64,000 nt of DNA. It comes from Alphaproteobacteria bacterium (GTDB lineage Bacteria > Pseudomonadota > Alphaproteobacteria > Bin95). Below, piece by piece: positions 22,520 through 50,755 of this stretch. The position numbers and the translations under genes are program-made. How positions within the stretch are numbered: position 1 is the stretch's first letter; every line of letters begins with the position of its first letter. The notes beneath the pieces are model-generated. The model was given only the letters and a program-made list of their open reading frames with translations, was not told the origin of the DNA and ran no database searches. Where the stretch lies: the NCBI GenBank assembly GCA_022827685.1, contig JAJEIH010000049.1, positions 1 through 64,000 of the forward strand, in the 5' to 3' direction.

Positions 22520-22687
22520 GGCTCCTTCGCGCCCCGCCAGATTAGCCCGCATTTCTCACCGATGTCATGGTGCCGGCGTGAATTCCCGCAGCCGGGCGGC
22601 CGGACCGAACGGATTCGGCCGGCGCGCGGGCCCGCGGGCGAAGATTGCTATTCGTTCGCTTGCAATGATATATTTCTCTTTAATTAC

Positions 22688-22715
22688 TTGACATATTTCG
22701 ATCTAATGATAGTAT
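22688..22715 (+). promoter_or_regulatory. Sigma70-like promoter upstream of repeat A (left copy)
   Basis: TTGACA (22688-22693), 16-base spacer, TAGTAT (22710-22715), in a local AT-rich patch. It points toward repeat A, which begins 76 bases downstream. A matching promoter stands the same way before the right copy of repeat A. Confidence 0.55.
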
Positions 22716-22790
22716 GGTGCGAAAGGAAGGGCGCGGCGTTCGCGGGGCCGCTCCGTCCTCCGGTTCGCGCCGGCGCGAAAAAACCACCGG

Positions 22791-22904
22791 GAAGCTGACA
22801 GGAGAAGTGCGTCCTCCGTCTCGCGCGCGCAATCAGGCGCGCGAACCGCGCCGCCGCGATACGCGCGCCGGCACGCGCACAGGCACCCGCGCAGGATACG
22901 CGCG
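22791..22904 (+). repeat. Palindrome-rich repeat A, left copy
   Basis: An 84-bp core (22821-22904) is identical, but for one A/G difference, to the complement of 32376-32459; similarity extends back to 22791. It is built of CG-alternating palindromes, for example TCGCGCGC and GCGCGCGA around GCAATCAG, and would fold strongly as RNA. The translation in one frame is Arg-rich, but the differences between copies do not favour silent positions, so conservation looks like that of DNA or RNA, not protein. Confidence 0.75.
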
Positions 22905-23197
22905 AATCAGGGTCCCGCCGCATGGGCCGCGACGGCGGCCGGAGGAGAGAACAGAGTGAAACGAAACGAGATGAGGGAACGACATGCAAGAGGCGGGCAG
23001 ACAGAGCTTCGGCGGAACGGCTCCAATGCCGGATTTCTCCTCTACCGCTTGCGGGAGAGGTCGGGAAAGGGTCCAGCGGCCGCGTCGCAGGGCAGCGCCT
23101 TGCCGGGTCGAAAAAGGGCCTCCCACGCAAGCGAAGGAGGGGGATTCAAGGACGGACGAACTCCATGCCGGAACCGGCTGCAGGATATGAGCACTGC

Positions 23198-23279
23198 GCA
23201 TGCAGAACATGACATCTCATGACATATCGCGAGGGAGGCCGGGCGCGCCTCATGACAGAACATGACATTCCATGACATG
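23198..23279 (+). repeat. CATGACAT-rich repeat B, left copy
   Basis: Begins with GCATGC and contains five ATGACA(T) units: two near 23208-23226, then GCCGGGCGCGCCTCATGACA and two more near the end. The complement of 31809-31899 has the same units in the same order, with a differing middle. It sits 180 bases before the TRAP binding-protein gene. Confidence 0.7.
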
Positions 23280-23458
23280 CCGGTGGCGTGGGCGCCTTGG
23301 GCCGGCCGGGCCCGCCCCATTGCAATTGATTCCCCCCGGACGGTGCTCTACGCTCTTCGAACCGAACGCTGCGGGCCATACGGGTTTGCCAGCGCTCCGG
23401 CAGCGGAGGCGGGCGGCCCGGCCGGGAAAGGCTGACAGCGCAACAGCGAGGACACTCC

Positions 23459-31808: not shown

Positions 31809-31899
31809 CATGTCATGATATGTCATGTTGTGTCATGAGGCGCGCCCGGCGTCCAAGTGATGTGTCATGGAATGTCATGAGATGTCATGTTCGGCATGC
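31809..31899 (-). repeat. CATGACAT-rich repeat B, right copy
   Basis: The complement begins GCATGCCGAACATGACAT and has six ATGACA units, with GCCGGGCGCGCCTCATGACA in common with the left copy (23198-23279). It is about nine bases longer, in the middle. It lies directly before the hydrolase operon. Confidence 0.7.
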
Positions 31900-32018
31900 G
31901 TGTTGGGCATGTTCCGTGATCCATCCAGGCATAACGTTCCGCTCATTGCCCTCCCCTCCCGCCTGCAGGCTGGCGCAGTTGCATGGTCCTTGTCCGTCGC
32001 CCCGGATCGGGTCCCTTT

Positions 32019-32159
32019 CGTCACCCCGGACTTGATCCGGGGTCCATCCATGGCTCCCGATGCCGCCGCAGCCGGTGAAGTGCAAGCTCAGCCGCCGGAG
32101 CCGCCGCGAGAACCGGGGCTGGACCCCGGATCGGCGCTGGCGCGCCGTCCGGGGTGACG
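32019..32159. repeat. Nested-palindrome intergenic element
   Basis: CGTCACCCCGGAC (32019-32031) is mirrored exactly by GTCCGGGGTGACG (32147-32159), and inside it GATCCGGGGTCCA (32034-32046) by TGGACCCCGGATC (32120-32132). This is the layout of the widespread alphaproteobacterial palindromic elements. It supplies the last codons and the stop of the small minus-strand gene. Confidence 0.75.
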
Positions 32160-32338
32160 AAAGGGGCGCGAAGCGCGGCGCGCCCGGCGCGGTGGCGTTC
32201 GGCCAGTGCGCGGTCGTCCTCCGGCGGCGGCGCTGCGGGGATGTCCTCCGCACAGGCGCCGGCAAGGGCCGCGGCGGCGGGGGCGAGCCTTTCGGCCAGC
32301 ATCGCCGCCAGTTCCGGGCGGGGGTCGGTTGGCGTCAT
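32021..32338 (-). CDS. Small unrecognised protein ending inside a palindromic repeat
   Basis: 105 residues from ATG 32338, chosen for a very strong ribosome site (AAGGAGGAACG). The first 58 residues are Ala/Pro-rich helix (PELAAMLAERLAPAAAALAG). From about residue 60 on, the sequence is simply the translation of the palindromic element at 32019-32159, so the original 3' end was probably replaced when that element inserted. Function unknown; it sits between repeats A and B in the leader of the hydrolase operon. Confidence 0.45.
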   Translation of the reverse strand: MTPTDPRPELAAMLAERLAPAAAALAGACAEDIPAAPPPEDDRALAERHRAGRAALRAPFVTPDGAPAPIRGPAPVLAAAPAAELALHRLRRHREPWMDPGSSPG

Positions 32339-32375
32339 CGTTCCTCCTTCTCCGACGGGGAGCGGGTCCCTTTTC

Positions 32376-32489
32376 CGCGCGTATCCTGCGCGGGCGCCTG
32401 TGCGCGTGCCGGCGCGCGTATCGCGGCGGCGCGGTTCGCGCGCCTGATTGCGCGCGCGAAGCAGAGGGCGCACCCCTCCCGTCAGCTTC
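32376..32489 (-). repeat. Palindrome-rich repeat A, right copy
   Basis: Its complement matches 22791-22904; the 84-bp core 32376-32459 differs at one position. The orientation is opposite to the left copy on the chromosome, but the same relative to promoter and downstream operon. Confidence 0.75.
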
Positions 32490-32568
32490 TCACGGGTTTT
32501 CAGAAAGTGGCGCCGCCCGGCCGCGCAGCACCCGGGACGCGGCTCCGGATGCCGCTTCCCTGGGGACC

Positions 32569-32595
32569 ATCATAACACAATCCGCCAGATGTCAA
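32569..32595 (-). promoter_or_regulatory. Sigma70-like promoter upstream of repeat A (right copy)
   Basis: On the minus strand TTGACA (32595-32590), 15-base spacer, TATGAT (32574-32569). It reads into repeat A, which starts 80 bases downstream. The arrangement mirrors the left copy (76 bases). Confidence 0.55.
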
Positions 32596-32680
32596 GCCCA
32601 AATCACGAACAAAAAGCAATTTCAGCAGATTTTTTTCAGTCCCGCAGACATCGGAAGGACCGGCCTTCCGCCCCGGCCGA

Positions 32681-50344: not shown

Positions 50345-50402
50345 GCGGCGCCTTTCGGCGCCGCGGTCCCGGAAAAGCGCGGCCGGCCCGAAGGCCGGCC
50401 GC
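50345..50402. terminator. Two GC hairpins between convergent genes
   Basis: GCGGCGCC-TTTC-GGCGCCGC (50345-50364) and a second perfect stem, GCGGCCGGCC paired with GGCCGGCCGC around CGAA (50379-50402). They lie between the AhpD-like gene and the convergent Cys-rich gene and probably terminate one each. Confidence 0.6.
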
Positions 50403-50416
50403 TGCCCATGAGGGCG

Positions 50417-50755
50417 TCAGTTGCTCTTGGGCTTGCAGGGGTTGCAAGCGCCGCAAACTTTCTTGGGCTTGCAGGGATTGCACGCACCGCAGGCGGGCTT
50501 GCAGGGGTTGCACGCGCCGCAGGCAGGCTTGCAGGGGCTGCACGCGCCGCAAGCGGGCTTGCAGGGGCTGCACGCGCCGCAGGCCGGCTTGCAGGGATTG
50601 CACACGCATTCCGGCTTGCAGGGGTTGCATGCGCAGGCTGCGGGCTTGCAGGCCGCATAGGCCGTGCCGGCGAGGCTGGTCGCGCCGACGGCGCCGACAG
50701 CCATGCCAACGCCGATGACCGCCGTGGAAAGCAGGCGGGCCTTATAGGATTTCAT
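50417..50755 (-). CDS. Secreted Cys-rich repeat protein (C[NS]PCK repeats)
   Basis: 112 residues from ATG 50755 (GGGAGAACTGCC upstream). A signal peptide (RLLSTAVIGVGMAVGAVGATSLAGTAYA) is followed by about 79 residues containing 22 Cys, arranged as seven C[NS]PCK units, mostly spaced by PACGA, then KPKSN. The spacing is regular (ten residues, 30 bases). Such density suggests metal binding or many disulfides. Each C-x-P-C-K is one residue (Lys for Arg) away from the C-x-P-x-R motif used by formylglycine-generating enzymes, and a SUMF1-domain gene is divergent from it across 179 bases. Confidence 0.75.
   Translation of the reverse strand: MKSYKARLLSTAVIGVGMAVGAVGATSLAGTAYAACKPAACACNPCKPECVCNPCKPACGACSPCKPACGACSPCKPACGACNPCKPACGACNPCKPKKVCGACNPCKPKSN
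50433..50640 (-). repeat. 30-base tandem repeats coding the C[NS]PCKP units
   Basis: About seven units of roughly 30 bases, each with GGCTTGCAGGG and GCACGCGCCGCA-like parts on the + strand, with a few codon changes and one shorter unit at the 5' end of the gene. Unit number could vary between strains by recombination. Confidence 0.65.

Follow-up and report, generated by a model that had tools for sequence, protein, structure and literature searches.

MITEs, such as the Correia elements, are miniature non-autonomous bacterial elements which are short, multicopy and intergenic, with conserved ends and an internal promoter. PICIs such as the SaPIs are phage satellites of approximately 15 kb which encode their own small terminase subunit (TerS), a protein which acts with a large terminase in packaging DNA. 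In phage P22 the pac site is located within the TerS gene (PMC9611059). In the literature we found neither orphan or dispersed terminases nor a description of a leader combined with TerS and terminal iterons.

The window, a 64,000-nucleotide stretch of alphaproteobacterial DNA, contains two copies of a sequence which we term repeat A. Based upon comparison with further copies and genomes, repeat A and its predicted promoter most probably form the 5' module of a mobile element of ca. 0.35–1.3 kb, which is dispersed through the genome and specific to the genus. It is this comparison which shows that the parts belong together and that the unit is mobile.

The two copies in the window

The first-pass annotation reported two near-identical copies of an 84-bp repeat, each with a promoter 76 or 80 bases upstream, and proposed that they specify a transcribed, folded RNA. 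The repeat is real, a single mismatch separating the 84-nt stretches of copies 1 and 2; these sit within a 139-nt region of 88% identity (22780–22918 versus 32362–32500). TTGACA is found ahead of both copies, in the orientation that reads into the repeat, and both distances are reproduced if the repeat is taken to start at the GAAGCTGAC motif. Both copies exist, but the genome holds approximately 83, the complete ones each with a matching 3' end. The features of the two window copies are as follows (basis in parentheses).

22650..23280, + strand: element copy 1, A1 type, with AT-rich block, promoter, leader, decayed ORF region and iterons (homology to ~83 copies)
22654..22687, + strand: copy 1 AT-rich conserved block GTTC...TATTTCTCTTTAATTAC, ahead of the promoter (block shared by most copies)
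22688–22693 / 22710–22715 (span 22688..22715), + strand: copy 1 predicted promoter, TTGACA / TAGTAT (sequence; family-wide promoter enrichment)
22726..22758, + strand: copy 1 leader 5' hairpin (pairing survives GC/AU/GU changes in 91 diverse leaders)
22780..22918, + strand: copy 1 conserved leader core, repeat A (family homology)
22821–22904, + strand: copy 1, 84-nt near-identical part of repeat A (sequence)
22956..23222, + strand: copy 1 putative short ORF downstream of the leader, starting with GTG, probably decayed (differs between copies)
23208..23277, + strand: copy 1 3' iterons CATGACAnnn, two then three (family-wide same-strand iterons)
31809..32640, - strand: element copy 2, A2 type, located ahead of an alpha/beta hydrolase gene (family homology)
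32595–32590 / 32574–32569 (span 32569..32595), - strand: copy 2 predicted promoter, TTGACA / TATGAT (sequence; near-identical among A2 copies)
32362..32500, - strand: copy 2 conserved leader core (family homology)
32376–32459, - strand: copy 2, 84-nt near-identical part of repeat A (sequence)
32021..32338, - strand: copy 2 105-aa ORF (MTPTDPRPELAAMLAERLAP...), N-terminus of a D-type protein, cut by the REP-like insert (fuller relatives L062, L091 and L119)
31998..32180, no strand assigned: REP-like inverted repeat of the GTCACCCCGGACTTGATCCGGGG type, inserted in the copy 2 ORF (inverted-repeat pair)
31811..31889, - strand: copy 2 3' iterons (sequence)

Copy 1 lies upstream of a DctP-type transporter gene and copy 2 upstream of the hydrolase gene, in each case on the same strand. 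Sequences like the REP-like hairpin of copy 2 are also found in other element copies. Elsewhere in the window, positions 50400–50672 consist of tandem repeats with a 30-bp unit (GGCTTGCAGGGGTTGCACGCGCCGCAG...), which probably specify a cysteine-rich repeat protein.

Organization of the element

At its 5' end the element has a constant module comprising an AT-rich block, a sigma-70-like promoter and a GC-rich leader of approximately 230 nt which bears a 5' hairpin. A variable ORF comes next, and the 3' end is a second constant module, in which CATGACA iterons are arranged on the same strand with a 10-bp period. Complete elements measure approximately 342–1118 bp, or about 1.3 kb with a TerS ORF, and neither a transposase nor an integrase was found inside them.

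Promoters were scored as consensus bases out of 12 in the 80 copies with enough upstream sequence. A score of at least 9 was reached in 51 of these; among shuffles the proportion was 7.5%, and of 80 control stretches taken from further upstream none reached it. The promoter preceding the repeat is therefore not due to chance. Many of the copies scoring below 9 have TTGCAT. The –35 hexamer is located a median of 95 bp ahead of the core. The AT-rich block, usually GTTC...GAAATA(A/T)TTC, lies ahead of the promoter in most copies. An AT-rich block occupies the promoter position in 75/80, the promoter block being missing from about five, which fits 5' truncation. As dozens of copies, in several species, have kept the promoter with the repeat at an almost unchanging distance, repeat A is very probably transcribed. 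To this extent, and in having a supported 5' hairpin, the proposed transcribed RNA holds good; it does not, however, form a two-copy family of its own, being instead the leader sequence of a mobile element that also comprises an ORF and terminal iterons.

In most copies the leader is followed by a ribosome-binding site and a start codon. The iterons (CATGACAnnn) are often arranged as two, a gap of approximately 23 bp, and then three. All copies for which at least 500 bp of sequence follow the core have them, and the copies without them are those cut by contig ends.

Copy number and distribution

A DNA search of the source genome (G000; 4.31 Mb, 167 contigs) gave at least 42 matches, from 40 scored out of 223 candidates. 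A pattern search gave 87 places, versus one with the reversed control, and after retrieval 83 distinct copies were kept. The assemblies are fragmented and many copies are located at contig ends. Near-identical copies are found at differing genomic places.

The leader is present in seven of the eight genomes of the genus, with many copies in six congeners (G002–G007); it was not found in congener G001, nor in any of the six genomes searched from two sister genera. Two weak matches in a further genome (G038) were rejected as signs of wider spread; they look like unrelated GC-rich sequence and have no iterons. The named relatives found through the element protein are metagenome-assembled Alphaproteobacteria and Rhodospirillaceae. 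As these include at least one sponge-derived name (Spongia_Bin9), the source bacterium is a probable sponge symbiont.

Filled and empty sites

At the copy 1 locus the element is present in G007 and absent from five other congeners; all congeners compared retain the transporter gene's own promoter-like region, which directly follows the element. At the copy 2 locus G002, G004 and G007 hold different element variants ending at the same iteron junction, while in G003 and G005 the leader is missing and a single iteron-like remnant is left. Empty counterparts were also found for L002 (L306), L006 (L314 and L317), L019 (L300) and L023 (L311). Since sites occupied in one species are vacant in a sister, we take the element to be mobile and repeat A to be its promoter and 5' leader.

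Most of the tested sites display synteny on the 3' side only, which suggests that copies are also located at rearrangement breakpoints. Recombination between copies may lie behind part of their scatter. No terminal inverted repeats or target-site duplication, the marks of MITEs and IS-derived elements, were recognised by eye at the compared junctions, which are too diverged to exclude short ones, and at which the precise element ends could not be fixed.

Structure of the leader

Across 91 leaders the first (5') hairpin keeps its pairing through GC, AU and GU exchanges, and stems of at least nine pairs occur in 29% of leaders as against 6.5% of shuffles. In a hairpin ahead of the ribosome-binding site there are some compensatory changes but also many broken pairs. 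In the core, 19 predicted pairs include no double change. The compensatory changes looked for in support of a folded RNA are thus present in the 5' hairpin and absent from the core. The folding z-score averages –1.8 for the whole leader (91 leaders) and –0.8 for the core; for the two window copies alone it is +1.0 and –1.25. The whole leader folds modestly better than shuffles. Given the lack of double changes and its z-score, the core appears to be conserved mainly as sequence. A search with all 4227 Rfam families gave no match in the window at or above the gathering threshold, and elsewhere only two weak, unrelated matches, in L119 (E up to 5).

Encoded proteins

Three main ORF types were recognised: TerS, a D-type protein (MTETDPRPRLAAALLERLAP...) of unknown family, and a 31-aa peptide (MPKTRSRRNRMEYPEP...). 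The remaining copies have decayed sequence between leader and iterons, and the ORFs are broken in most copies; those of both window copies are decayed, that of copy 2 being D-type. TerS is encoded by the best-preserved copies; most copies of the element have none. The ORF of L094 matches PF03592 with 47.5 bits (curated cut-off 26.1; E 3.8e-12), and an element ORF matches PHROG TerS (2.4e-13). Median dN/dS of the TerS domain, which is under purifying selection, is 0.19 within the genus and 0.31 in the loci of a second clade. That the entire element derives from a virus or phage was considered and rejected; phage and virus collections matched the TerS part alone, at less than 60% identity. One open frame of 463 aa (L126/L128, G000:C18 312–1145) contains two TerS domains and is possibly a fused tandem copy.

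The second-clade TerS loci (approximately 57–64% identity) are mostly from other metagenome-assembled genomes, including sponge-associated ones. Their ORFs mostly end at CATGACA-type iterons, and are preceded by a short untranslated region rather than by this leader; the genome of one such locus (L205) also carries leader-type copies. An exact GAACN7GAAC box lies ahead of the TerS gene in 9 of the 14 second-clade loci examined. This box is of the alphaproteobacterial LexA type (PMC3091678), and one of the same type (GAACACTTGAAGAAC) is found upstream of recA in the second-clade genome G041.

LexA-type boxes were rejected as a feature of the element promoters in the source genus, where exact GTTCN7GTTC occurs in 4/53 copies, just past the iterons, and never in the promoter region. 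These boxes (GTTCGATGGGTGTTC and variants, after the last iteron of L002, L006, L008 and L108) may belong to an extended 3' end of that subfamily. The region upstream of recA in the source genome (L325, ~1360–1400) contains GTTCCTGAAATATTCC, which resembles the GTTC...GAAATATTC block before the element promoters. SOS-type control common to recA and the element promoters is possible.

Possible mechanism and alternative explanations

The leader would be the transcribed 5' untranslated region of the element ORF, its hairpin presumably protecting the RNA or setting translation. As a conjecture, the 3' iterons could be binding sites for the TerS-type protein made by the few intact copies. This protein would act in trans on decayed copies, of which there are many and which might persist as non-autonomous passengers. 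One might go further and regard the minimal unit of promoter, RNA leader, orphan TerS and pac-like iterons as a new class of mobile element, spreading because the iterons would allow the DNA around it to be packaged by phage or gene-transfer-agent particles; we hold this to be unlikely.

The same leader might instead belong to a free-standing family of structured small RNAs with its own promoter, acting in trans, the ORF and iterons being incidental. The retained promoter, the hairpin which survives base changes and the strong sequence conservation of the core would all suit such an RNA. A ribosome-binding site and start codon follow the leader in most copies, however, iterons follow every complete copy, and the core has neither covariation nor an Rfam match; we therefore find this explanation improbable. 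In its two-copy form it is incomplete, given 83 copies with ORF and iterons. That the leader regulates adjacent host genes in cis might be supposed from the window, where both copies lie upstream of a same-strand gene. Over the 53 copies in which orientation was called, by codon-usage score, the downstream gene is on the same strand in 31 and on the opposite strand in 22, so that the element does not behave as a host-gene leader. Furthermore, 12 copies have convergent genes on either side, and in species lacking the element the DctP gene still has a promoter-like region of its own; such a role is very improbable.

Broken ORFs in most copies and one-sided synteny at many sites are what one would expect of decaying relics of an old repeat family, no longer mobile and shuffled by homologous recombination among its copies. 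Against this are the near-identical copies at different places, the empty sites in close sisters and the purifying selection on TerS, and we consider it rather doubtful that the family consists of relics. A mobile element with repeat A in its 5' module remains the reading we prefer.

Comparison with known systems

If true, the multiplication of orphan small terminases, tied to terminal iterons, to dozens of copies would mean that phage packaging genes have been put to an unusual new use as mobile elements. The family also provides these genomes with ready repeats for rearrangement, and the way in which the element moves can be tested directly at its filled and empty sites.

Like the MITEs, the element is short, intergenic and present in many copies, with conserved ends and a promoter inside. 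Unlike them, it has TerS or other ORFs, a 3' array of direct-repeat iterons and a long 5' RNA leader. At the junctions compared, no terminal inverted repeats or target duplications were recognised in it by eye. With phage TerS (PF03592) and pac it shares the TerS N-terminal domain and repeats at the end of the gene, or within the gene in some relatives. It differs from them in its many dispersed copies and in that no large terminase, capsid or tail genes were seen in the short element; iteron binding is here putative. Compared with PICIs the element is far smaller (approximately 1 kb versus 15 kb) and occurs in dozens of copies per genome. The integrase, attachment sites and satellite regulators of PICIs were not found, complete elements leaving no room for them. 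Like PICIs, it has its own TerS without a full phage, and in the second clade a LexA-type box lies before the TerS gene.
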